Under the pieces are notes generated by a model. The model was not told the origin of the DNA. It saw only the letters and a list, made by a program, of their open reading frames with translations, and did not search any database. From an uncultured Clostridia bacterium (GTDB lineage: Bacteria; Bacillota; Clostridia; Oscillospirales; Ruminococcaceae): DNA of 64,000 bases. The stretch is from NCBI GenBank assembly GCA_945923775.1, contig CAMELR010000007.1, positions 1 through 64,000 on the forward strand. Reading direction: 5' to 3'. A program made the position numbers and the translations under genes. Shown here piece by piece: positions 13,837-58,875 of the stretch; within the stretch, counting starts at the first letter, position 1, and each line of letters starts with the position of its first letter.

Positions 13837-15007
13837 GGCTGACCTCCTGTTCCGATGTTACCAGCGTGGGGATCTCATTCATAAGCTGTTTTTCGCTGCC
13901 GGTCGCGCAGGCCTCCTCGGTGAGCCTGAAAATATGCTCCGCGTTCGCGAGAAGCTCCTCGTCGATGTCCTCTTTGGTGACTTCCTTGTAGAATGCAGTG
14001 AAATCCTCGGAGAAATCCCGCTTTTCCTCCTCCGCGATATCTACGCTGCTTTCCTCCCTGTCGCTCTTGAAATACAGCCTTACAAGGTTTGGGAACTTAT
14101 CCCGGATACGTGCGCCGATGTTCTCCTCGCCATCTATGCCGCTGACCGTGATGTAGCAGTAATCCTCAGATGCGGGGTACTTTTCGGAGAGTATGCTGTT
14201 CAGCGCGTCATCTATGGTGACGAACTCGTGAAGCGGCTGTATCTTCACGCTCTGCACGCGGACGCTCTTGTCGTCTATGTCAATTATATCTACGAATTTA
14301 TCCGGAGCCTTCGCCTCTGAAGCCGAATAGCACACTGGAGACCCGCAGTATCGCACATTTTCCGCGACATTCTGCGGAGTGTGGATATGCCCGAGCGCCG
14401 TGTAAGCAAATCCGCTGAACGCGTCAGCGTCCACGGTCGCCTGCTTTCCTATCACTCGGTCATGCTCCGCGACCGCCTGATGAGCCACCAGAAGGCACCT
14501 GCGCTCACCCGGAAGCCCCGCCTTTTTTAACACCTTTTTTATTGCGTCAGTCATGGTCAGCAGCTCCTCGCCGTACGCAGCGTTTACGTCTGAGAGTGTG
14601 ACGTTAGGCAGCAGCGCGATGTCGATATCGCCGAATTTTTCAACGCGCAGCGGCTCCTCTGCAGAGAATGGGCGGTTTATAAAGATGTCCAGCCTGGACA
14701 TAAGCTTCTCGTTTGCGGCAAGGCGCAGCGGATCGTCGTGATTCCCACTGCACACGAAAACCTTCATGCCAAGATCTACTGCGGCGGTCAGCAGCCTGCC
14801 GTATATTTCCTCGGCGTAAGCCGGGGGCTGAGCCTTGTCGAAAACGTCTCCTGCGATGATAAGCCCGTCTATTCTGCCCTGCGCGGAGACCTCCCTGTAA
14901 ATGCGCCCGAGTATCTCAGAGAACAGCGCATGTTCGATGTCCGCCGTGATGTCGGTGTCATAGAGGGAAGCCCCTAAATGCAGGTCGGAAATGTGCATTA
15001 GTCTCAT
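13817..15007 (-). CDS. sbcD: Nuclease SbcCD subunit D (Mre11-like)
   Basis: The 396-residue metallophosphoesterase has all core motifs: ISDLHLG at residues 6-12, AGDVFD, SGNHDDP, and later GHIHTPQ. These bind the two metal ions of the Mre11 active site. AGAAGGAGC precedes the ATG. It is the first gene of the sbcD-sbcC pair; the GH5 gene upstream ends 50 bp away behind a terminator-like hairpin. Confidence 0.97.
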   Translation of the reverse strand: MRLMHISDLHLGASLYDTDITADIEHALFSEILGRIYREVSAQGRIDGLIIAGDVFDKAQPPAYAEEIYGRLLTAAVDLGMKVFVCSGNHDDPLRLAANEKLMSRLDIFINRPFSAEEPLRVEKFGDIDIALLPNVTLSDVNAAYGEELLTMTDAIKKVLKKAGLPGERRCLLVAHQAVAEHDRVIGKQATVDADAFSGFAYTALGHIHTPQNVAENVRYCGSPVCYSASEAKAPDKFVDIIDIDDKSVRVQSVKIQPLHEFVTIDDALNSILSEKYPASEDYCYITVSGIDGEENIGARIRDKFPNLVRLYFKSDREESSVDIAEEEKRDFSEDFTAFYKEVTKEDIDEELLANAEHIFRLTEEACATGSEKQLMNEIPTLVTSEQEVSHDDQNA

Positions 15008-15024
15008 GTTTTGCTCCTTCTGAA

Positions 15025-15052
15025 AAGACCCCCACTTCTGCGCGGGGGTCTT
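15025..15052 (-). terminator. Terminator downstream of the GH5 pair
   Basis: A 9-bp stem AAGACCCCC / GGGGGTCTT with a 10-nt loop is followed on the minus strand by TTTTC. It separates the GH5 operon from sbcD. Confidence 0.7.
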
Positions 15053-15056
15053 GATT

Positions 15057-16214
15057 TTACTTGCAGCTCTTTGCAGCGTTTACAAGCGCCTTGATGTACT
15101 CTGGATACTCCCATGTGAGGGTGTTTCTGTGGAGCTGACCGAACTTCTCGGTACCAACACCGAACGCATTGTTGTCCCACAGGAATACCGGTATTCCGTT
15201 ATCGCCGAACACCACGGGGAAGTACTTGGCCCACGCGATACGGGAAGAAAGATTATTCTTGTTGACCGTTCCGCACTCGCCGATGATGGCTCCGACTCCC
15301 TTGCTGATGAAACGGTCGTAAAGCGTGTCGGAAAGCCAGATAAGTTCGCCGGTGCTGTCGTTCTTTGACGGGTCGAACACCTTGGTGCCGTTCTCGTTCA
15401 TCGCGAAATTATAGGGGGAATACGCGTGTATAGACACGATAAGGCTGTCGTCCTCGGGAACGGTGAATCCCTCGAGCGCGGAAGCGCTTGCCGCATAGGT
15501 CGGTATCATCAGCGCACGGTACTTGTTGTTGCCGCCGGTGGAACGCACTGCCTTCACGAAATCAGCGTTCAGCTTGTTGACTACGCTTCTGCCTTCGGAG
15601 TTGCCGCCGTTCCATTCAAAGTTTGTGTTCTTCCAGCGCGGCTCGTTCATGCCCTCGAAAATAAGGCGGCTGCCGTAGTCCTTGAATTCGTTCGCTATCT
15701 GCTTCCAGAGGTTCTTGAGCTTCTTGGATGCCGCCTTGTAGGAATCCTCGTAGGGGTCGTTCCAGTTTTCGTGGTGAACGTTCAAGATAACGTACATACC
15801 CTCGTTGTACGCGTAGTCAACGACTTCGTGAACGCGCTCGAACCAGGCGTCGTCAACGTTGAGGTCGGAATCGGAGTGATTGAACCAGGTAGTCGGGATA
15901 CGAATTGCGTCAAAGCCCGCTTCGCGCACAGTGTCTATAAGCTCCTTTGTGACTACGGGGTTGCCCCAGCTTGTTTCGCTGGTGTAGCCGCTTCCGGTGG
16001 CGTCAAGGGAGTTTCCAAGGTTCCAGCCGATGGTTATCGACTTGCAGAGCGCTATCGGGTCTACCGGGGCGGTCAGCTCCTCGCTGTCGACAAATGCGGT
16101 ATCACCGGGCTGCTGAACCAGTCCGTTCAAATTATCCAGGGCGGTGCCCGGGTTTGTTCCTAAGAGTGTGAGCGCGGTGATAGCCGCCGCTATCTTTGTA
16201 AATAATCCTGTCAT
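15057..16214 (-). CDS. Secreted GH5 endoglucanase-type glycoside hydrolase
   Basis: The 385-residue protein is a single GH5 catalytic domain. Motifs include IGWNLGNSLDA, RIPTTW, NVHHENW, the acid/base Glu191 in GMNEPRW and the nucleophile Glu313 in IIGECG. The N-terminus MTGLFTKIAAAITALTLLG reads as a short signal peptide but lacks a lipobox. There is no carbohydrate-binding module or dockerin. It lies 33 bp behind its paralogue (16248-17447) in the same operon. Beta-1,4-glucanase activity on cellulose or mixed-linkage glucan is the usual activity; mannan or xyloglucan cannot be excluded. Confidence 0.92.
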   Translation of the reverse strand: MTGLFTKIAAAITALTLLGTNPGTALDNLNGLVQQPGDTAFVDSEELTAPVDPIALCKSITIGWNLGNSLDATGSGYTSETSWGNPVVTKELIDTVREAGFDAIRIPTTWFNHSDSDLNVDDAWFERVHEVVDYAYNEGMYVILNVHHENWNDPYEDSYKAASKKLKNLWKQIANEFKDYGSRLIFEGMNEPRWKNTNFEWNGGNSEGRSVVNKLNADFVKAVRSTGGNNKYRALMIPTYAASASALEGFTVPEDDSLIVSIHAYSPYNFAMNENGTKVFDPSKNDSTGELIWLSDTLYDRFISKGVGAIIGECGTVNKNNLSSRIAWAKYFPVVFGDNGIPVFLWDNNAFGVGTEKFGQLHRNTLTWEYPEYIKALVNAAKSCK

Positions 16215-16247
16215 TGCTGTGCCTTTCTTTTATTCTGTTGGTGCTTT

Positions 16248-17447
16248 TTACGCCGCTTTGTCCGCTGTGTCGGGAGCTTCACCGGAAGCGCCCTTCATCA
16301 TTCCTTCAAGGAGCGCGGGGTACTTGACCTCGTTCAAGTGGCGGTCGAACAGACCGAAGGTCTCGCCGCTGAGGAACGCGCCGTTATCCCACCAGAAGCA
16401 GGGAATACCGATCTCCTTGAACTTGCTGAAATAGTACTGCGCCCACTGTGCGCGGTAGTCCTCGTTGTCGCGGTTCATAGCGCCGCATTCACCGATGATG
16501 ACAGCCTGCCCCTTGCTGATGAACAGTCTGTCGAGCACCTCGGCGAGGGTGTCTATGTCACGGGTGCAGTTGACCTTGGAAGCTACCCACTTATCCGTGC
16601 CTGGCTGTGCCAGCGCAAAGCTGTAGGGTATGTACGCGTGAACCGAAACGATGAGCCTGTCGTCGTCCGGAAGCTCCAGAGAGGCAAGCGCCGGCTCGGT
16701 GGAGTTCGCAGCGTAGGGACACACCATCAGGAAACGGTACTGATTGTTTCCGCCGGTGGCTCTTACTGCGTCAACGAACACCTTGTTCAGGTGGTTTACT
16801 ACGGTCCTGCCCTCGTCGTTGCCGCCGTTCCACTCAAAATCTGTGTTCTTCCAGCGCGGCTCGTTCATGCCCTCGAAAATGAGGTGCTGGTCGTAATCCT
16901 TGAAGTTTTCCGCGATCTGAGTCCAGCAGCTCGACAGCTTGGCGGATATCTCCTCTTCCTTGTCGGCGTAGGGCTGGTACCACTCCTCGTGGTGCATGTT
17001 CAGTATAACGTACATATCCAGGTCGTATGCGTAGTCAACTATCTGCTGAACGCGGCTCATCCAGTCGGCGCTTATCGTGCCGTCGTCGCCTATCTGGCGC
17101 TCCCATGTGGTGGGTACGCGTATCGCGTTGAATCCCGCGTCCTTCACTGCCTGTATGAGTTCCGGAGTTACCGCGGGATTTCCCCAGCTCGTTTCCTGCG
17201 TAAGCCCGGAACCGCCTGTGGCGTCAAGGGTATTGCCGAGGTTCCAGCCTATCTTGATATCGGAAGTGAGCTGCATTGCGGTCAGTTCGGTGTCGAACTC
17301 CCTCGCGGAGCCGCCGTCCGAAACGGTTCCGTCAGTATTTCCGGTATCGCCGGTATTCCCGGAGCTTTCCACGGACCTGGAGCAGCCCGCTCCGGTCACG
17401 CATAATGCAGCCGCCATTAAAGCGGCGGCGAGTTTCTTGAAATTCAT
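16248..17447 (-). CDS. Lipoprotein GH5 endoglucanase-type glycoside hydrolase
   Basis: The 399-residue GH5 enzyme starts with a lipoprotein signal (MNFKKLAAALMAAALCVTG followed by AGC, lipidated Cys). A Gly/Ser/Thr/Asp-rich linker to about residue 55 would hold the catalytic domain off the membrane. Catalytic residues are Glu196 (GMNEPRW) and Glu320 (IIGECG). The start at 17447 has AAGGAG 6 bp upstream; the longer in-frame start at 17483 does not. It is closely related to the next gene, so the pair arose by tandem duplication. One copy is membrane-anchored and the other appears freely secreted. Confidence 0.93.
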   Translation of the reverse strand: MNFKKLAAALMAAALCVTGAGCSRSVESSGNTGDTGNTDGTVSDGGSAREFDTELTAMQLTSDIKIGWNLGNTLDATGGSGLTQETSWGNPAVTPELIQAVKDAGFNAIRVPTTWERQIGDDGTISADWMSRVQQIVDYAYDLDMYVILNMHHEEWYQPYADKEEEISAKLSSCWTQIAENFKDYDQHLIFEGMNEPRWKNTDFEWNGGNDEGRTVVNHLNKVFVDAVRATGGNNQYRFLMVCPYAANSTEPALASLELPDDDRLIVSVHAYIPYSFALAQPGTDKWVASKVNCTRDIDTLAEVLDRLFISKGQAVIIGECGAMNRDNEDYRAQWAQYYFSKFKEIGIPCFWWDNGAFLSGETFGLFDRHLNEVKYPALLEGMMKGASGEAPDTADKAA

Positions 17448-17497
17448 GTTTTTCTCCTTGCAGCGGGCTTGCGCCCTTTCCATAAAAGTACAATCAT

Positions 17498-17526
17498 ATT
17501 ATATAATACTTTGTTAAAATCGTCAA
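17498..17526 (-). promoter_or_regulatory. Promoter of the GH5 pair
   Basis: On the minus strand TTGACG (17521-17526) and TATAAT (17498-17503) are 17 bp apart. It drives the GH5 genes and diverges from the VTC operon promoter region at 17595-17649. Confidence 0.8.
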
Positions 17527-17594
17527 GTGGATTAGTGTATTTTGATATAAACTGAGCTTTTTATGCTACAAAATCCGCAGAGATCTTCTGCATT

Positions 17595-17649
17595 TTCACG
17601 TTAAATTCAGGTTAAATTTCAGGTTGGTTTCAAGTGGGGGGCTTATAAT
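17595..17649 (+). promoter_or_regulatory. Putative PhoP-type promoter of the VTC-DUF4956-CotH operon
   Basis: Four direct repeats of TTCA(C/G/A)G start at 17595, 17606, 17618 and 17629, so they are phased by 11-12 bp: TTCACGTTAAA, TTCAGGTTAAA, TTCAGGTTGGT, TTCAAG. A perfect TATAAT lies at 17644-17649 and there is no good -35 box. This is the layout of PhoP-activated promoters in Bacillus (four TT-A-A repeats from about -60 to -20). The repeat sequence differs somewhat from the Bacillus consensus, so assignment to PhoP is inference. Confidence 0.6.
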
Positions 17650-17680
17650 CAGGATATCAAAACGAAAGGAGCCAAGCCTG

Positions 17681-18373
17681 ATGGAAAAAACACCAAGATA
17701 CAGGGACGAGCTGAAATATCAGATATCCCGCGGCGAACACCTCGCACTGAGAAGCCGCCTGCGCGCCGTTATGAAGCCCGACCCGCACACCGATGAAAAC
17801 GGGCTTTACTGCATACGCAGCATATATTTCGACAACTACCGCGACAAGGCGCTCCGGGAAAAGAACGACGGCGCGCCGCAGCGCGAGAAGTTCCGGATAA
17901 GGTACTACAACGACGACACCCGGCACCTGACCCTAGAAAAGAAAATAAAGCACGACCGCCTGTGCTTGAAATGCAGCGAGCCGCTCTCCAGCGAGGACTG
18001 CGGAATGCTCCTGGACGGCAGGCAGCACGAGATACCTACCGAAGGCAAGCCGCTGCTAGCGGAGCTTATCACCAAGATGAACACCCAGCTCCTGCGGCCG
18101 CGCGTGCTGATATCCTACCGGAGGGAGCCGTTCATCTACGCTCCGGGAAATGTCCGGATAACGTTTGATTTCGATGTCCGCACCACGATGTACCACCAGA
18201 AGTTCCTTGAAGCCGACCCGTTCGACCTCAGCGCTTCGGATTCCCCCGGTGACATGATAATGGAGGTCAAATACGACGACTTCCTGCCGCAGGTCATTTC
18301 CGACCTTATCCAGTCCGAGGGAGTACGCCAGCAGTCATTTTCAAAATATGGAGCCTGCCGCAGATTCGGCTGA
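17681..18373 (+). CDS. VTC domain protein (polyphosphate polymerase-like)
   Basis: The 230-residue protein is a stand-alone VTC catalytic tunnel domain, related to the yeast Vtc4 polyphosphate polymerase. Conserved positions are readable: a basic pair in KFRIRYY, LEKKIKH, RITFDFD, the acidic EVKYDD and the final FSKY lysine. No membrane segment is present, so it is cytoplasmic or bound to the DUF4956 protein encoded next. The ATG at 17681 has GAAAGGAG upstream; the longer in-frame start at 17624 falls inside the promoter. Whether the product is polyphosphate or another phosphate polymer is not known for such bacterial operons. Confidence 0.88.
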   Translation: MEKTPRYRDELKYQISRGEHLALRSRLRAVMKPDPHTDENGLYCIRSIYFDNYRDKALREKNDGAPQREKFRIRYYNDDTRHLTLEKKIKHDRLCLKCSEPLSSEDCGMLLDGRQHEIPTEGKPLLAELITKMNTQLLRPRVLISYRREPFIYAPGNVRITFDFDVRTTMYHQKFLEADPFDLSASDSPGDMIMEVKYDDFLPQVISDLIQSEGVRQQSFSKYGACRRFG

Positions 18374-18404
18374 CACATTTATATAGTAATTCAGGAGGTT
18401 TATT

Positions 18405-19076
18405 ATGACATTCAGCGATATTTTCAAATCCAGCTTTCTTGAGAGCGTTACAGAGTTCTCCATTCTCGATACAGTGATAGGTCTGGCGTTCGCGCTTGCT
18501 ATCGGCCTGTTTATTTTCCTTGTTTACAAAAAGACCTTCTCCGGCGTTATGTACTCCACCGGATTCGCGCTTTCACTCATCGGACTTTCGCTTGTGACCA
18601 CCCTGGTCATCATGGCAGTAACGTCAAACGTCGTGCTTTCACTCGGTATGGTCGGCGCGCTTTCTATCGTCAGATTCCGCGCGGCTATCAAGGAGCCCAT
18701 GGAAATCGTGTTCCTGTTCTGGGCTATCGCGGCCGGTATCGTTATCGGCGCAGGAATGATCCCGCTTGCAGTCGCAGGTTCCGTTATCATCGGCGTTGTA
18801 CTTATCCTCTTTGCCAACAGAAAGCACATCGAAACTCCCTATATCGTAGTTATAAACGCTGAAAACGACGCTGCCGAGAAAGCCGCTCTCGACCTCGTTA
18901 ACCGCTCCGTCAAGCGCTGTGTAGTCAAGAGCAAGACCGTAAACGCTTCCGGTATCGAGCTTACCGCAGAGGTCAAGATATCCGGCGATTCCACACAGTT
19001 CGTAAACAGCCTCATCGCGCTGGACGGCGTTACAAATGCGGCTCTCGTAAGCTACAACGGCGAGTACATGTCGTAA
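18405..19076 (+). CDS. DUF4956 membrane protein
   Basis: The 223-residue protein has about four membrane segments in its first 140 residues and a soluble C-terminal domain. The block SNVVLSLGMVGALSIVRFRAA is the family signature and is shared with the second copy at 58174-58875. It lies 31 bp behind the VTC gene with an AGGAGG site. The pairing VTC-DUF4956 suggests that the membrane protein exports or anchors the product of the VTC enzyme, in the way that Vtc1/Vtc4 transmembrane parts form a channel in yeast. That is inference. Confidence 0.88.
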   Translation: MTFSDIFKSSFLESVTEFSILDTVIGLAFALAIGLFIFLVYKKTFSGVMYSTGFALSLIGLSLVTTLVIMAVTSNVVLSLGMVGALSIVRFRAAIKEPMEIVFLFWAIAAGIVIGAGMIPLAVAGSVIIGVVLILFANRKHIETPYIVVINAENDAAEKAALDLVNRSVKRCVVKSKTVNASGIELTAEVKISGDSTQFVNSLIALDGVTNAALVSYNGEYMS

Positions 19077-19088
19077 GGAGGGATACCC

Positions 19089-21491
19089 TTGCTGGGAACT
19101 AAATTCGCAGAGCGCTTCGCGGTGGTGTTCATCGCGGCGGCGTTTCTGATAAGCATAGGGCTGTGCATGTTCTCCGGAACCGCCTTTGCAGGAGCAGACT
19201 CCGGCGTAACGATGGAGTACGAAAGCGCCCTTTTCGACCACAGCCAGATAATCAGCGTTAACATCATCATGGACGAGGACGACTGGCAGGACATGCTTGA
19301 CAACGCCGCGTCCGAGGAATACTACAAATGCGACGCCGTGATAAACGGTACCACCTTCTACAGCGTAGGAATACGCCCGAAGGGAAACACCAGCCTCTCC
19401 TCCATAGTAAACGACCCCACCACCGACCGCTACAGCTTCAAGCTGGAATTCGACAAGTATGTCGATGGTCAGACCTGCTTCGGACTTGACAAGCTGGTGC
19501 TCAACAACAACTACGCCGACGCCACAAACATGAAGGAAGCGATAGTTTACGACATGTTCGCCTATCTCGGCGCTGACAGCTCGCTTTACAACTATGCGAA
19601 GATATCCGTAAACGGCGAATACTGGGGCGTCTACCTCGCGCTCGAGGCTGTTGAGGACAGCTTCCTGCTGAGGAACTACGGCGTTTCCTCCGGCGACCTC
19701 TACAAGCCGGACTCCATGCAGATGGGCGGCGGAAAAGGCGGAAACGACGATAACGGCGGCAACGGCGGTCCCGGTGGAAACAAGCCCGACAATATGCCTG
19801 ATTTCGCAGGAGGATTCCCGGACAACAGCTCCGACGGCACCTCTGAAGCGGATATCCCGACCCCGCCGGACGGGACGTTCACTCCCCCGGATAACACCAA
19901 TGCAGATACACAGTCCGATGAAAACTCCACGGATTCCGAGCGCCCCGGCGGCGCAGGCGAAAACGGCGGGAACGGAGGACACGGCGGCGCTATGAACTTC
20001 GGAAGCTTTGGAAGCTCCGGCGGCTGTGACCTTAACTACACCGACGATGACCTCGACAGCTACTCCGACATCTGGGACGCAGAGGTGACAAGCACCAGCA
20101 AATCCGACCACAAGCGCGTAGTAGCCGCGCTGAAAGCCGCCGCTGAAGGCACAGACCTCGAAGAATACCTCGATATTGACAACCTTCTGAGATACATGGC
20201 GGCTCACACCTTTTCAGTTAACCTCGACAGCCTCAGCGGGAACATGGCGCACAACTACTATCTCTACGAAAACAACGGCGTGATAAACCTTATCCCCTGG
20301 GACTACAACCTTGCATTCGGTGGAATGAACAGCAATGATTCCGACGCGGTGAACTTCGCGATAGATTCGCCGTTCTCCGGAACGCAGTTCTTCGACAAGA
20401 TACTTGAGAACGAGGAATACCTCGCGAAATATCACGAGTACCTGCGCATACTCAGCGAGGAATACGTCCAGGGCGGAGTATTCCAGCAGACCTACGACCG
20501 CATACGCTCCCAGATCGACGAGCTGGTAAGCACCGACCCGAATGCATTCTTCACCTATGACGAATACGACGACGCGGCTCAGATGCTGGTAAAGGTAGTC
20601 GGACTTCGCGCTGAGAGCGTCCTCGGTCAGCTTGACGGTACCGTACCCTCCACCACCGAGGCACATCGGCAGAACTCCGCGGCGCTTATCGACACCTCCG
20701 ATATCGACATCTCCGTAATGGGGACGATGGGCGGCAACAAGGGCGGCATGGGAGGTATGGGAGACAAGCGCGAATTCAACGCGCAGGCTCAGCAGACCGC
20801 CACGGAAAGCTCCGGAACTTCCACTGATAACACAGACTCTGCGGATACATCAAGTTCAGCAGATTCGGACGCCACAGGCAATTCCGCTGAGCTTGTGAGC
20901 CTTTCAGATACGACACTTTCAGCGCCTGACGGTCAGCCGCCGGAGCTCCCCGCAAACGGGGATATGAACGGTGCAGGCGGTCAGGCAGGTCAGGACAGCC
21001 AGGGGTTCGGCGGAAACGGAACGCCTCCTGCAAAGCCCTCCGGCGACCCGCCTTCCGGGGCTCCCGGCGGCGAAATCACCCAGCCTGCGCAGCCCAGTGA
21101 ATCCGGTGACTCAAGCAGTACGTCAAGCGCTGATGATACCGCTTTCGGAACTGCAGGAACTCCCTCGTCAGACGGCGATAAAACTCTGGAAACCACCGGA
21201 ACCACAGAAGCCACAGCCACTGGAACAACCGCTGAAAGCGCCGCAGACGCATCGTCTGACGATAATTCCACCACAAATGGACAGCCGGGCTTCCCGGGCG
21301 GCAACGCTGATAACGCCGGGAATGTTGGTAACGGCAACGGAGGATTCGGAGGCGGCTTCCCTGGCAACCCCGGGGGTTCCGGGAATTCCGGAGCATCAGG
21401 AAGCAGCAATTCGGGGCTTGTGCCGCTTATTATAAGCGCAGGCGCTGCTGCCGCCGGACTGTTGTTTGCAGCTTTATTCCACCGCAGATAA
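19089..21491 (+). CDS. CotH-like surface protein with low-complexity tail
   Basis: The 800-residue protein starts at a TTG with a strong AAGGAGGGA site. It has a signal peptide (cleavage near TAFAG), a CotH protein-kinase-like domain (GIRPKGNTS, then SVNGEYWGVYLALEAVED, and the metal-binding-type LIPWDYNLAFGG) up to about residue 530. Gly/Asn/Pro/Ser-rich stretches occur at about 215-310 inside the kinase-like region and again from 535 to 770. A final membrane segment with basic tail HRR lacks an LPxTG motif. CotH of Bacillus phosphorylates coat proteins; here the domain is extracellular, so it may modify surface proteins or polymers. Confidence 0.9.
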   Translation: MLGTKFAERFAVVFIAAAFLISIGLCMFSGTAFAGADSGVTMEYESALFDHSQIISVNIIMDEDDWQDMLDNAASEEYYKCDAVINGTTFYSVGIRPKGNTSLSSIVNDPTTDRYSFKLEFDKYVDGQTCFGLDKLVLNNNYADATNMKEAIVYDMFAYLGADSSLYNYAKISVNGEYWGVYLALEAVEDSFLLRNYGVSSGDLYKPDSMQMGGGKGGNDDNGGNGGPGGNKPDNMPDFAGGFPDNSSDGTSEADIPTPPDGTFTPPDNTNADTQSDENSTDSERPGGAGENGGNGGHGGAMNFGSFGSSGGCDLNYTDDDLDSYSDIWDAEVTSTSKSDHKRVVAALKAAAEGTDLEEYLDIDNLLRYMAAHTFSVNLDSLSGNMAHNYYLYENNGVINLIPWDYNLAFGGMNSNDSDAVNFAIDSPFSGTQFFDKILENEEYLAKYHEYLRILSEEYVQGGVFQQTYDRIRSQIDELVSTDPNAFFTYDEYDDAAQMLVKVVGLRAESVLGQLDGTVPSTTEAHRQNSAALIDTSDIDISVMGTMGGNKGGMGGMGDKREFNAQAQQTATESSGTSTDNTDSADTSSSADSDATGNSAELVSLSDTTLSAPDGQPPELPANGDMNGAGGQAGQDSQGFGGNGTPPAKPSGDPPSGAPGGEITQPAQPSESGDSSSTSSADDTAFGTAGTPSSDGDKTLETTGTTEATATGTTAESAADASSDDNSTTNGQPGFPGGNADNAGNVGNGNGGFGGGFPGNPGGSGNSGASGSSNSGLVPLIISAGAAAAGLLFAALFHRR

Positions 21492-21550
21492 CGTAATGCA
21501 TAAGCGCTGATTATTTTATCCTGATACGCTTCTTCATTTTCCATACAGTT

Positions 21551-21581
21551 AAATCGCCCGGAGCGCTGCTCCGGGCGATTT
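21551..21581. terminator. Terminator between cotH-like gene and tautomerase gene
   Basis: A perfect 14-bp stem, AAATCGCCCGGAGC / GCTCCGGGCGATTT with loop GCT, lies between two convergent genes. The T-run is short on both strands. Confidence 0.65.
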
Positions 21582-21600
21582 AATGCTTATTTTCAGATAA

Positions 21601-21942
21601 TCAGAAGTTTCCGCCGTTCCAGCCCCAGCAGTCGGTAGGGGCGTACTTTACGTATATTTTATCTGCGGGAACTCCCAGAACCTCGGTGTAGATACGGCAT
21701 ATCTCGGCGGTCATTTTGTCGCAGGCAGCCGGGGAAGCCGGTCCGTAAAGGCTGACGTCAACGAACGCTATCTTCTCGGACTTCTCACCGCGGAAGTACA
21801 GCGAGCACTCCTGCTCAAAGCCCAGCATGAGCCAGCTCTCGGTTTTTCCGAGTATGGAAACCGCAGAGCCGAGGGCGGTCTTGAGTTCCGTTTCCTGCTC
21901 GGGGGTTATCTTCTGGGAATACTTTGTGTTGATAAACGGCAT
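21601..21942 (-). CDS. MIF/phenylpyruvate tautomerase family protein
   Basis: The 113-residue protein begins MPFINTKYS, leaving the catalytic N-terminal proline after methionine removal. It has the length and pattern of the MIF branch of the tautomerase superfamily (LMLGFEQECSLYF, then VDVSLYG). Bacterial members keto-enol tautomerise small pyruvoyl compounds in vitro; the real substrate is unknown. AAAGGAG precedes the ATG. It lies 16 bp downstream of the Nudix gene and is likely co-transcribed with it. Confidence 0.88.
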   Translation of the reverse strand: MPFINTKYSQKITPEQETELKTALGSAVSILGKTESWLMLGFEQECSLYFRGEKSEKIAFVDVSLYGPASPAACDKMTAEICRIYTEVLGVPADKIYVKYAPTDCWGWNGGNF

Positions 21943-21958
21943 GTAGTTATCTCCTTTC

Positions 21959-22528
21959 TTATGGCAGGATATCCCCGGCGCAGGTCTGCACCTCGCGGAA
22001 TTCCTGTAGATCTATGCAGTATCCGGGATCCTTTTTCTCAAGCGCTTTTCTGATGGAAACGGCATTCTGCCACTCCACGCCGGATATCTCTTCCTCCTCG
22101 AAATGTATCGAGGTATCAGCCAGCGCGCCTTTATACAGGAACACCCATTTCAGTTCATTGTTTAAGAAGCGCTTGCCGTGGAATATGTTGTCCTCGCTGA
22201 CCTTCCGGCGGAATAACAGCACGAATTCTGACGGCCTTGCACGTATGCCAAGCTCCTCGCGGAGTTCCCGTATTGCGGCGGATATCGCGTCCTCTCCGGC
22301 ATCGATGTGTCCGGTGGAGGCAGCGTCCCAGCAGCCCGGGAAGGAATCCTTGTCGTCGGCGCGCTTTTGCAGCAGGAACTCCATTCCGGAGATACGCCGC
22401 CGCGCTATCCAGATGTGGACGCTCGCGTGCCAGTCGCCGTCGCGGTGAATGTCGCCGCGACGCTTGGTGGTCTCGGTACGCTCCCCGCTGTCGTTCAGGA
22501 CATCGAAAAGCTCGTCGTCAGAATACAT
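21959..22528 (-). CDS. Nudix hydrolase
   Basis: The 189-residue protein contains the Nudix box, from GHIDAGED to REELGI, near residues 75-97, which binds the metal for pyrophosphate cleavage. The preceding FPGCWDAASTGHI and DWHASVHIWI are like isopentenyl-diphosphate isomerase or YfcD-type Nudix proteins. The start at 22528 is preceded by TGGAGG; the longer in-frame start at 22636 would run into ung. It lies 32 bp after ung on the same strand. Substrate unknown. Confidence 0.88.
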   Translation of the reverse strand: MYSDDELFDVLNDSGERTETTKRRGDIHRDGDWHASVHIWIARRRISGMEFLLQKRADDKDSFPGCWDAASTGHIDAGEDAISAAIRELREELGIRARPSEFVLLFRRKVSEDNIFHGKRFLNNELKWVFLYKGALADTSIHFEEEEISGVEWQNAVSIRKALEKKDPGYCIDLQEFREVQTCAGDILP

Positions 22529-22560
22529 ATGCTTACCTCCATTCCGTATGGTATGACAAG

Positions 22561-23229
22561 TCAGTCCAGCTTCCAGTCTATCGGCTTCATGCCGCGGCTG
22601 ACCAGGAATTCGTTGGTCTTTGAAAAGTGCCTGCACCCGAAGAACCCGTTATAAGCAGATAGCGGACTCGGGTGAGCGCATTGCAGCACCAGGTGAGCCG
22701 GATTTGTTATGAGCCGCGCCTTAGACCGCGCGTTCCCTCCCCACAGCAGGAACACCATAGGCTGCTGCCGCTCGTTGAGGAGCTGTATTATACGGTCAGT
22801 GAACTGCTCCCAGCCCATACCCTTGTGGCTGTTGGGTTGTCCCTCGCGGACGGTCAGCACCGTGTTCAGAAGCAGCACGCCGTTATCCGCCCAGGAGGTC
22901 AGCTCGCCGTGCTGGGGCGGGTCGATACCAAGGTCGGACTTCATTTCCTTGAATATGTTCTGCAATGACGGAGGCGGCGGAGTTCCCCTTTTTACTGAGA
23001 AACACATACCGTGCGCCTGCCCGGGGCCGTGGTAGGGATCCTGACCGAGTATAACAGCCCTTACGTCGCTGTAGGAAGTATGCCGCAGAGCATTGAAAAT
23101 ATCCTCCATCGGCGGGTAAATGCGGCGCGTGGTGTATTCGCTTATCAGAAACTGCCGCAGCTTCAGGTAGTAGTCCTTCTGTATCTCGTCGGCAAGCAGG
23201 GCGTCCCATTCGTTTCCTATGTGCATCAT
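22561..23229 (-). CDS. ung: Uracil-DNA glycosylase
   Basis: Ung removes uracil from DNA as the first step of base excision repair. The 222-residue protein shows the water-activating motif GQDPYHG, the uracil pocket, and HPSPLSAYNGFFGCRHF near the C-terminus for DNA minor-groove intercalation. Length is typical. It starts 3 bp after the end of the flavin reductase gene, so it belongs to a flavin reductase-ung-Nudix-tautomerase run. Confidence 0.97.
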   Translation of the reverse strand: MMHIGNEWDALLADEIQKDYYLKLRQFLISEYTTRRIYPPMEDIFNALRHTSYSDVRAVILGQDPYHGPGQAHGMCFSVKRGTPPPPSLQNIFKEMKSDLGIDPPQHGELTSWADNGVLLLNTVLTVREGQPNSHKGMGWEQFTDRIIQLLNERQQPMVFLLWGGNARSKARLITNPAHLVLQCAHPSPLSAYNGFFGCRHFSKTNEFLVSRGMKPIDWKLD

Positions 23230-23232
23230 GGC

Positions 23233-23835
23233 TTATTTCTTCTTTTTGTGGGAATCCTTATGCGGCTTCTTGGTGCGCTTGGGCTTCACAGAGAATCCGA
23301 AGGTGCCTATCTTCTTTCCGAGGGCGAAATAGGTTCCGTGGGCGTATGCCATCAGACCCGCCTTTTCAATGTGCAGCTTGCCCTTCTCGTCGATGAGGTC
23401 CTTTGCGATATTCACGGAGGTTATCTCCGCGATGAACATATCATGCGAGCCTTGCGGCAGGATCTCAGTCACTTTGCACTCGATAGAGATGGGAGCCTGA
23501 GCGATCTGCGGCGCGGAGACCGTGTTGCTTTCCTGCGGGTAGAGCTTCATCTTGCCGAGCTTATCCTCGTTCTTTCCGGACTTTATGCCGCAGTAGTCAA
23601 GGGAGCGCACGAGCGTGGACGGCATCATATTGATAACGAACTCGCCGCTTTCCTTGATGATATTATAGGAGTTTCTCTCCGGTCTTACTGAAATGTAGGT
23701 CTTAGCCGGGTCAGAGCATATTATACCTGTCCACGCGATCGTGAGAGCTGTGGGCTTCTCCATCGTTCCGCAGGATACCAATACAGCCGGAACCGGTGCA
23801 AGAAGGGTTCCTGGCTTCCATTGTACTTTTTCCAT
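23233..23835 (-). CDS. Flavin reductase family protein (FMN-binding split barrel)
   Basis: The 200-residue protein matches the flavin reductase/flavoredoxin family: TLLAPVPAVLVSCG at the N-terminus, ALTIAWTGIICSDPAKTYISVRP in the FMN site, and SGEFVINMMP. The C-terminus is unusually lysine- and histidine-rich (PKRTKKPHKDSHKKKK). It could reduce FMN or act as an electron carrier; partners are not identifiable. AAAGGAAAG precedes the ATG. It heads the operon with ung. Confidence 0.88.
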   Translation of the reverse strand: MEKVQWKPGTLLAPVPAVLVSCGTMEKPTALTIAWTGIICSDPAKTYISVRPERNSYNIIKESGEFVINMMPSTLVRSLDYCGIKSGKNEDKLGKMKLYPQESNTVSAPQIAQAPISIECKVTEILPQGSHDMFIAEITSVNIAKDLIDEKGKLHIEKAGLMAYAHGTYFALGKKIGTFGFSVKPKRTKKPHKDSHKKKK

Positions 23836-23951
23836 TGCATTGCTTTCCTTTCTGTGTGATGCATATTACTGCATTTTAATTATACCACATTGTTACGCAT
23901 TATGCAACATTATTTTATCTGAAAATGTGGTTCGGGCTGCAAAAAAGGGGC

Positions 23952-24163
23952 TGTCGATAAAGTTTATAACTTTTCGCGTAGCGTATTGGTTTTCGCTTCC
24001 TTTTGCTTCCAAAAGGAAGCGGGAGTGTGAGGGCAGAGCCCTCACCACTCTGCGCGCTGGCGCGCAGTTAAACGATTCAATGGCGCTAAAGGGGTGTGGG
24101 GGAAAACAAGAGTTTTCCCCCACAGTTTTTTGAAATTTACTGCCGTTATGACTTTTTTCGACA
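23952..24163. repeat. Hairpin-rich element with TGTCGA ends (copy 3)
   Basis: TGTCGATAAAG at 23952 and, on the other strand, TGTCGAAAAAAG from 24163 form imperfect terminal inverted repeats like those of 2752-2929. Inside are perfect hairpins: 23995-24020 (10 bp), 24027-24045 (GTGAGGGC), 24050-24067 (CTGCGCGC) and 24095-24124 (13 bp, TGTGGGGGAAAAC). The central part is shared with the element at 25414-25798. The element is bracketed by AAAAAAGGGGC at 23941 and a GGGGC/GCCCC terminator at 24171-24195. Confidence 0.72.
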
Positions 24164-57380: not shown

Positions 57381-58181
57381 ATGCGGCTTCTGAAATCCAC
57401 AAGGCTTATACCCAGGCTCGGAAGCGAGGAAACGCGCGTGCATGCTCCGCAGCTCCGTGACCGCACAACGCTGTCCGGCGGGAGGAAGCTCAGGCACGAA
57501 CTGAAGTTCATCATAAACGAGGGCACCTACCTCATGCTGAGAGCGCGCCTGGCGCCGCTCATGACGGTCGACCCGCACGGAGTCAACGGCGAATACCGTG
57601 TCACCAGCCTTTATTTCGACGACGTATACAACTCGGCTTACTGGCAGAAGGTCAACGGCATTGAAACGCGCCGGAAATTCCGCATACGCGCCTACGACCT
57701 CGACCCGTCGCTTATAACCCTGGAATCCAAGCACAAGGACGCCTCCTACGTTTCAAAGCTCTCCCGGCGGCTCACCGAGGAACAATACCGGGCGCTGCTC
57801 TCCTGCGACTGCGGCTTCATGGCGGACAGCGACAGCGGCGAGGATTCCTTCGGGGAATTTTACCGCGCCGACCTGCTCACAAAGCTGCGCCCGAGGGTGA
57901 TCGTGGACTACCGCCGCCAGGCGCTGATATCCCGCTTCGGAAACGTCCGAATCACGTTTGACAAGCAGCTTTCCGCGTGCTTCAACACAATGGATATGTT
58001 CGCGCCGGAAGCACAGTACACTCAGGTTCTCGGCGGAGATATCATACTTGAAGTTAAATTTGACAGCTATATTCCCGAAAGTATACAGGCGGCATTGCAG
58101 GGGCTGAACGCTCCGCAGCAGTCAGTATCAAAATATATGATCTGCACAGACAGAATGTTGGAGGTATTATCCCATGGTTGA
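57381..58181 (+). CDS. VTC domain protein, second copy
   Basis: The 266-residue protein shares the tunnel-domain motifs of the first copy: KFRIRAY, LESKHKD, RITFDKQ, LEVKFDS and QSVSKY. It has an extra N-terminal stretch of about 35 residues rich in Arg (RLLKSTRLIPRLGSEETR). GGGGAGGTG precedes the ATG. It overlaps the DUF4956 gene by 8 bp. Sequence differs enough from the first copy that the duplication is old or the two were acquired separately. Confidence 0.87.
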   Translation: MRLLKSTRLIPRLGSEETRVHAPQLRDRTTLSGGRKLRHELKFIINEGTYLMLRARLAPLMTVDPHGVNGEYRVTSLYFDDVYNSAYWQKVNGIETRRKFRIRAYDLDPSLITLESKHKDASYVSKLSRRLTEEQYRALLSCDCGFMADSDSGEDSFGEFYRADLLTKLRPRVIVDYRRQALISRFGNVRITFDKQLSACFNTMDMFAPEAQYTQVLGGDIILEVKFDSYIPESIQAALQGLNAPQQSVSKYMICTDRMLEVLSHG

Positions 58182-58875
58182 CGTGATCAGTCAGTTCCTG
58201 ACAAGCGGCTCAAAGCTAACCGACGCTATCGAACTTTTCGGCACCGACTTCGAGCTTGCGAACATTTCCGTTGCTACGATTCTTGTTACGCTGCTCACGG
58301 CGGCAGTCTGCGGAGCGGTGATCTATCTTGTGTACCGCTTCTTTAACCGCAGCGTTATTTACAACGAAAACTTCAACATTCTCGTGATACTTACCACCGT
58401 TGTTACCTCGTTCATCATCATGACGATAAGCTCCAACGTGGTGCTGTCGCTCGGAATGGTCGGCGCGCTCTCCATCGTGAGATTCCGCGCGGCTGTAAAG
58501 GACCCACTGGACATAGGATTCCTGTTCTGGGGAATTGCAGCGGGAATCACCGCCGGAGCGCAGCTCTACTGGGTAGCTCTGCTCGGAACCGCTGTTATCG
58601 CAGTGCTGTACATACTCATCACCATCTTCCGCAAGGAAAAGAAAAGCTACCTTCTCATCGTGAGATACGACGCCTCCTGTGAGATGAACGTCAACGGCGT
58701 ACTGGGAGCCGTAAAGTACCGCCTGAAGAACAAGACACAGACCGGGGATAAAATTGAGCTGACCGTGGAAGTCAAGATCCGCCGGAACGACACCGCCTAC
58801 CTCAGCCGCTTCAACGCCATCGACGGAGTCGAAAGCGTTACCCTGCTGGAATACAGCGGCGAATATATGAACTGA
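58174..58875 (+). CDS. DUF4956 membrane protein, second copy
   Basis: The 233-residue protein carries the family block SNVVLSLGMVGALSIVRFRAA, nearly identical to that of the protein at 18405-19076, in a similar four-helix layout with a soluble C-terminal domain. TTGGAGG within the VTC gene is its ribosome site. The pair lacks a CotH partner; a bidirectional terminator follows. Confidence 0.87.
   Translation: MVDVISQFLTSGSKLTDAIELFGTDFELANISVATILVTLLTAAVCGAVIYLVYRFFNRSVIYNENFNILVILTTVVTSFIIMTISSNVVLSLGMVGALSIVRFRAAVKDPLDIGFLFWGIAAGITAGAQLYWVALLGTAVIAVLYILITIFRKEKKSYLLIVRYDASCEMNVNGVLGAVKYRLKNKTQTGDKIELTVEVKIRRNDTAYLSRFNAIDGVESVTLLEYSGEYMN

Follow-up and report, generated by a model that had tools for sequence, protein, structure and literature searches.

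The phased repeats that precede a VTC-DUF4956-CotH operon in the window (the whole stretch of DNA analysed, 64,000 nucleotides) are very probably, judging from sequence comparison, the binding site of an OmpR-family regulator from a clade linked to operons of this kind. The likeliest member would be RR_C33, acting by CiaR-like two-component activation. The genome (G000; 2.97 Mb, 89 contigs) encodes ten OmpR-family regulators above the Pfam cut-off. RR_C33 is encoded at 12417-13088 of contig C33 with a kinase gene just downstream, and its own promoter carries the box.

The repeat site comprises four forward-strand units, TTCACG (17595-17600), TTCAGG (17606-17611), TTCAGG (17618-17623) and TTCAAG (17629-17634), spaced by 11, 12 and 11 bp. 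The fourth, the proximal unit of the putative activator box, is followed after 9 bp (17635-17643) by a TATAAT -10 hexamer on the same strand (17644-17649). No -35 accompanies it: AGGTTG, the hexamer found 17 bp before it, does not match one, and a sigma-70 scan of 15000-24000 called no promoter at this TATAAT. Three TTCA(C/G/A)G units in a row occur at two overlapping places in the window, both at the repeat site, and in none of 100 dinucleotide shuffles of the window (our shuffles keep dinucleotides approximately; the null of the scored box used below keeps base composition alone). Elsewhere in the 2.97-Mb genome a triple occurs just once, at C4:92212, where the stretch examined has an 841-codon open frame around it. 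The repeats with their spacing, and the perfect TATAAT without a clear -35, had been pointed out in a preliminary description of this DNA and are upheld by the sequence, the shuffles and the promoter scan. That description was also right about the layout, since repeats phased at 11 bp and placed directly before a -10 that lacks a -35 correspond to the geometry of OmpR/PhoB-family activator promoters. In its sequence features the site fits an OmpR-family activator promoter, with head-to-tail units of about 11 bp, a distance of about 10 bp to the -10 and a weak or missing -35.

Downstream of the promoter, a likely ribosome-binding site, AAAGGAG (17665-17671), precedes the ATG at 17681 of the first operon gene, which encodes a VTC-domain protein resembling polyphosphate polymerases (17681-18373; PF09359, E 4e-37). 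It is followed by a gene for a DUF4956 protein, membrane-like on reading (18405-19076; PF16316, E 1e-11), and by one for a CotH-domain protein (19089-21491; PF08757, E 1e-59), the translation of which has a signal-like N-terminus and a C-terminal hydrophobic stretch. The gene content proposed for the operon at the outset is confirmed by Pfam. A terminator-like hairpin with a 17-bp stem (21548-21584) follows the operon, and all these features are on the forward strand; its stem is the strongest in the 9-kb region 15000-24000, in which nine terminator-like sites were found versus 8.4 expected. The strongest sigma-70 match in that region is a separate minus-strand site close to the repeats, TTGACG-17-TATAAT (17498-17526), directed toward a divergent GH5 cellulase gene. 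VTC domains make polyphosphate in yeast. The VTC family profile matches the yeast Vtc4 structures (E 5e-6), and the single VTC protein from the window alone gave no match to them.

Several side observations concern these proteins. The VTC protein of the window is 57-60% identical to the best loci among the best 80 of at least 548 relatives, many of them titled Lachnospiraceae and one belonging to a Ruminococcus sp. (L148, 58%); with proteins from its own genus the identity does not exceed 50%. This may hint at horizontal transfer of the gene. The DUF4956 protein matches the MgtC/SapB model NF007431 weakly, its 27.6 bits being far under the cut-off of 214. A second VTC-DUF4956 pair, at 57381-58875 of the window, points away from two genes that on reading are rpmH and rnpA, and the VTC-box model described below gives its promoter a low score. 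In a third pair (L048 9034-12412, contig C1 of G000), a Cthe_2159-type carbohydrate-binding protein (PF14262) replaces CotH.

We then looked at VTC promoters in other genomes. Named genomes were scanned with a VTC alignment, and the best 80 of at least 548 relatives were used, 30 of the 80 being titled Lachnospiraceae; the loci are related, and counts over them are not independent observations. Unsupervised expectation-maximization (EM) on 79 VTC upstream regions of other genomes, with no input from the window, gave the motif TTTCAGGTTCATTTCAGG, the best of 60 starts having a log-likelihood gain of 444 versus 63 for the best of 30 starts on shuffled input. When this motif was run over both strands of about 204 kb of own DNA (the window plus ten stretches), the top match was position 17617 of the window (22.3 bits), followed by the RR_C33 promoter (20.3 bits) and position 17594 of the window (14.5 bits), with the next at 11.3. 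The VTC-box model, built from 19 foreign sites, had the same three sites at its top (23.0, 22.8 and 21.8 bits; next 14.6). Its training sites had been chosen by their TTCA pattern, which favours such sites, a flaw of which the EM motif is free. Units 3 and 4 rank first with both the VTC-box model and the EM motif; units 1 and 2 (17592-17616) rank second of 407,216 own positions with the former and third with the latter.

The strict pattern TTCA-N7/8-TTCA was present within 200 bp upstream of VTC at 30 of 79 loci, versus a mean of 1.6 and a maximum of 7 in 300 shuffles, and controls on the other strand and inside the gene gave five and zero loci, respectively. The strict-pattern box is absent from the other 49 regions. 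Three units occur in 5 of the 79 (shuffle mean 0.02), and a frequent form of the box upstream of VTC is TTCAGGTTCATTTCAGGTT. Divergence is also seen: the VTC promoter of G048 has a CTAAG version of the box, and on reading no clear box was found at the VTC promoters of the same-genus orthologues in G026 and G008.

Within G000, the pattern TTCA-N7/8-TTCA-N10-12-TANAAT, that is, two units at about the distance from a -10 seen at the repeat site, has five matches, and the reversed pattern has none. The five are the repeat site, the RR_C33 promoter and three others, two of which have no downstream gene on their strand according to the open reading frame lists and one of which is upstream of a gene for a 441-aa protein. 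Across 43 genomes of the genus, the pattern with TATAAT gave 18 matches and the reversed control one. Twelve of the 18 fall within open frames, on one strand or the other, with a length of 80 codons or more, and one, in this genome (C1:70192), faces no gene. The remaining five precede VTC in this genome, G006 and G066, RR_C33 in this genome, and a small alarmone synthetase gene in G006; in every one of them exactly 9 bp separate the last unit from TATAAT. The VTC promoter of G006 has three units, 11 and 11 bp apart, and the best regulator match in that genome is only 37% identical and on another contig. In G066 the box is flanked by VTC on one side and by a divergently oriented regulator gene on the other, and a 132-codon frame of the opposite strand overlaps the box as well. 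Of the own regulators, RR_C33 is the best match of this G066 regulator (L244 6229-6897), but only to residue 186, after which the frame departs from the family. The alarmone synthetase gene of G006 (L138 180-907) encodes a YjbM-like protein (PF04607; NF053588 at 177 bits, below the cut-off of 320) and, with its own TTCA box, is directly upstream of VTC-DUF4956-CotH.

The RR_C33 promoter, TTTTTCAACTGCATTTCAGGTTTTTGTGATATAAT, was singled out on reading among the promoters of the own OmpR-family regulators; it has two units with an 11-bp period and a 9-bp distance to the -10. RR_C33 is not beside the VTC operon in G000, the former being on contig C33 and the latter on C7, and their pairing therefore rests on the shared box. 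Linkage of the two gene types was found in other genomes. A search with RR_C33 over its own genome and 60 relatives (E 1e-40), an unselected set, gave 30 matches, own included, of which five are within 10 kb of a VTC gene. The RR_C33-like genes near VTC are in G023, G016, G048, G051 and G055, and RR_C33 is the closest own regulator of all five (168-244 bits versus at most 142 for the next).

The same association was seen in the best 80 of at least 548 relatives. Of the ten own regulators, RR_C33 is the closest to 37 of the 42 OmpR-family regulators within 5 kb of VTC in these loci; the other five are of RR_C43a type (three), RR_C39 type (one) and RR_C43b type (one). A regulator of RR_C33 type is within 6 kb of VTC at 38 of the 80 loci, and at 26 of the 42 that have more than 5 kb on both sides. 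When the proteins of the same 80 loci were clustered, VTC was represented in 73, DUF4956 in 66, a CotH-like third gene in 52 and the regulator-kinase cluster in 44. Another type of third gene, one tested member of which is a Cthe_2159 protein, came up in 14, and no other family in more than 13. A further clustering set of 30 relative loci includes L135 and L136, which were added once a regulator beside VTC had been seen, and no counts were taken from it; its 'CotH' label covers two kinds of protein, one of the two CotH seeds, L048 10520-12412, being a Cthe_2159 protein (PF14262). In a maximum-likelihood tree, 42 of 45 VTC-linked regulators fall together with RR_C33 in one clade of 44 rows (support 100/99), and the neighbour of RR_C33 is the L150 regulator, which comes from an RR-HK-VTC-DUF4956-CotH-like array. 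An outer domain is predicted for twenty aligned kinases of the clade, which share it along with its proline-rich stretch and its conserved RxF motif; a few further kinases look divergent in the predicted outer domain. As an observation apart, G055 carries, between CotH and VTC (L059 10229-11840), a receiver-like protein (PF00072 just under the cut-off) and a second kinase, by their sequence an added signalling pair inside the operon.

Regulator and operon promoters were compared in pairs by a scored box, in which TTTAAG and TTTAGG units are also allowed and a call is a score above 95% of the null. The 43 pairs comprise 38 linked loci plus the own pair, G048, G023, G055 and G051 with hand-set windows; G016 was left out, and for G055 and G051 the CotH promoter was scored instead because CotH leads that operon. 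With the own pair included, the box was called at 39 of the 43 operon promoters (VTC or CotH) and at 22 of the 43 promoters of regulators; without it, at 38 of 42 and 21 of 42. At the variable third base, 12 of the 18 pairs with a box on both sides agree, versus 7.2 by permutation (P 0.016, own included; 11 of 17 with the own row excluded). In both G055 and G051 a box stands upstream of the regulator and of the CotH-led operon. By the strict pattern the box is present in 5 of 29 RR_C33-like promoters of relatives (shuffle mean 0.04) and in 6 of 37 regulator promoters of the named loci (shuffle mean 0.33). Among full-flank loci, the strict box is present at 13 of the 26 that have an RR_C33-type regulator linked to VTC and at 6 of the 16 that lack one; the difference is not significant, and we do not count this comparison as support.

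The preliminary description had assigned the repeats to PhoP of the phosphate regulon, with the operon answering to phosphate supply, and had thereby tied this surface system to phosphate metabolism. PhoP-activated promoters of Bacillus and the PHO boxes of Streptomyces, built of 11-nt units, have comparable phasing and position, and the OmpR-family geometry is common to Pho boxes. The genome does have a pst locus, on contig C6, adjoined by one OmpR-family regulator and a kinase, which by position we read as phoP/phoR, and the yeast polyphosphate activity and the Vtc4 match of the VTC family would agree with a phosphate connection. The repeat motif was looked for at the pst genes, its absence there being what the preliminary description itself had named as refuting the proposal, and the pstS promoter has a different box. 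The own pstS promoter, TTTACAGAGATTTAACA...GGATTTAACATTCTCCTGATATAAT, reads TTTACA-N5-TTTAACA...TTTAACA before TATAAT, and on reading the pst promoters of relatives have TTTACA/TTTAACA-type units too. A Pho model was trained on these promoters: 14 of 16 non-own pst loci were entered and 11 gave a site. Training omitted L109 and L118, whose upstream regions resembled other coding sequence, and the own locus (L103); the nearest relatives (L104-L106) were missed by the Pho regular expression though they visibly carry TTTACAAAGATTTAACA. Over 407,216 own positions the Pho model placed pstS at rank 1 (20.4 bits) and the VTC site at rank 129 (6.5 bits). The outcome with the VTC-box model was the opposite, the VTC site being at rank 1 (23.0 bits) and pstS at -3.7. 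The own PhoP is outside the VTC-linked regulator clade in the tree and is the best match of none of the VTC-adjacent regulators examined. With a different box at pstS and a Pho model that misses the VTC site, the promoter and genome comparisons speak against PhoP control, and we rejected it; binding of these repeats by PhoP now appears extremely improbable, and a response of the operon to phosphate supply finds no support in the sequences.

Regulators other than RR_C33 could in principle read the TTCA repeats, RR_C43a being the example at hand: its type accounts for the three VTC-near cases mentioned above, L193 and L197 among them, and its promoter itself contains TTCA repeats. The proximal repeat there, however, is about 20 bp from TATAAT, the promoter is absent among the best own matches listed (14 for the VTC-box model and 12 for the EM motif), RR_C43a is outside the VTC-linked clade, and among the best 80 of at least 548 loci the VTC-near regulators are predominantly of RR_C33 type (37 of 42). 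We consider it improbable that another own OmpR-family regulator is responsible. A separate observation concerns RR_C43b, the upstream region of which (L050 13912, contig C43) has TTTAAG/TGTAAG-like repeats with the last one 10 bp before TATAAT, which suggests that a second system of OmpR type uses another unit. It is also conceivable that the regulator acts at the repeats as a repressor, or in both ways, for instance if four units let binding exceed the two proximal ones; four units are indeed present here, and of the 79 other VTC upstream regions only 5 have as many as three in a row. Against this, the promoter has no -35 and its proximal unit is 9 bp from the -10, near the layout of activated CiaR promoters (ten bases in the available part of PMC3091779), which leaves repression or dual action unlikely, if somewhat less so than a different regulator.

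Activation by RR_C33 would proceed as follows. The kinase would phosphorylate RR_C33 on an extracellular signal, and RR_C33 dimers would bind the head-to-tail units, the proximal one taking the -35 position. Bound RR_C33 would recruit RNA polymerase to TATAAT and switch on VTC, DUF4956 and CotH together, and would drive its own gene via the box in its promoter. The sequences themselves show the box with its geometry and its recurrence at many VTC promoters, the linkage and phylogeny of the regulator clade, and the mismatch to the Pho box; from these we infer that the regulator binds there, that it activates and does not repress, that it controls its own gene and that RR_C33 is the regulator concerned.

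Neither a two-component system dedicated to VTC-DUF4956-CotH nor an established role for such modules was found in the literature (open-licence PMC papers). As a tentative and rather doubtful extension, RR_C33 and its kinase might be part of a previously undescribed envelope-sensing system that is CiaR-like and widespread among clostridial bacteria of the gut and rumen. Its core regulon would consist of one surface module, made up of VTC, DUF4956 and either CotH or a Cthe_2159-type protein, together with the genes of the system itself and, in certain species, a small alarmone synthetase. If true, (p)ppGpp, a surface kinase and an enzyme of polyphosphate type would all be connected with a signal from outside the cell. 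Modules of VTC, DUF4956 and CotH are found repeatedly in clostridia of the gut and rumen; with the two-component clade and its DNA site, an orphan operon gains a candidate regulator with a name. The rest of the regulon can be sought by means of the box, and a tempting but unsupported link to phosphate starvation is removed.

Parts of the arrangement have counterparts in described systems. The Pho box of the PhoP/PhoB regulon likewise consists of phased 11-bp direct repeats upstream of a -10, read by an OmpR-family regulator, but is built of TTTACA/TTTAACA units, and two models separate the pstS and VTC promoters. CotH, polyphosphate polymerase (PPP) and DUF4956 are neighbouring accessory genes of Gram-positive pel clusters, according to the available part of PMC7112168, so the identical three protein families are adjacent in both settings. 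In the pel clusters as described there the trio is contiguous with pel genes, whereas here the only further neighbour in more than 14 loci is the regulator-kinase cluster (44 of 80, among the best 80 of at least 548). VTC together with CotH is also in print for a Clostridium perfringens locus (PMC2879425, as far as the accessible text goes). Among the NCBIfam matches listed for RR_C33 (25 of 102), no CiaR model was found and RR_C33 is below the curated cut-offs of the families. RppA/RppB is the best-scoring named family, among the matches listed, for both RR_C33 (NF041734, 221 bits) and its kinase (NF041735, 134 bits), and both scores are under the curated cut-offs (250 and 400, respectively).

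CiaRH of streptococci has the box TTTAAG-N5-TTTAAG, which the search rule given in the available part of PMC3091779 sets ten bases from a TATAAT -10. It shares with the VTC-linked system an OmpR-type direct repeat with an 11-bp period at a nearly equal distance from the -10, ten bases there and 9 here, and the VTC promoter of one clade locus, L171, carries the exact CiaR box, TTTAAGTACATTTTAAG. The recognition helices VVWVYISYLRKKL (G023, G016) and HVEVYVGFLRKKL (L207, L212) resemble by eye the CiaR helix VVEVYVSKVRKKL printed in that part of the paper, and it is from this printed helix alone that the likeness to the CiaR protein is taken. Unlike in CiaRH, the box here is TTCAGG-like and the linked genes are VTC-DUF4956-CotH. 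Judged by the portion of the CiaRH work available, this is the closest described arrangement to the VTC-linked system.
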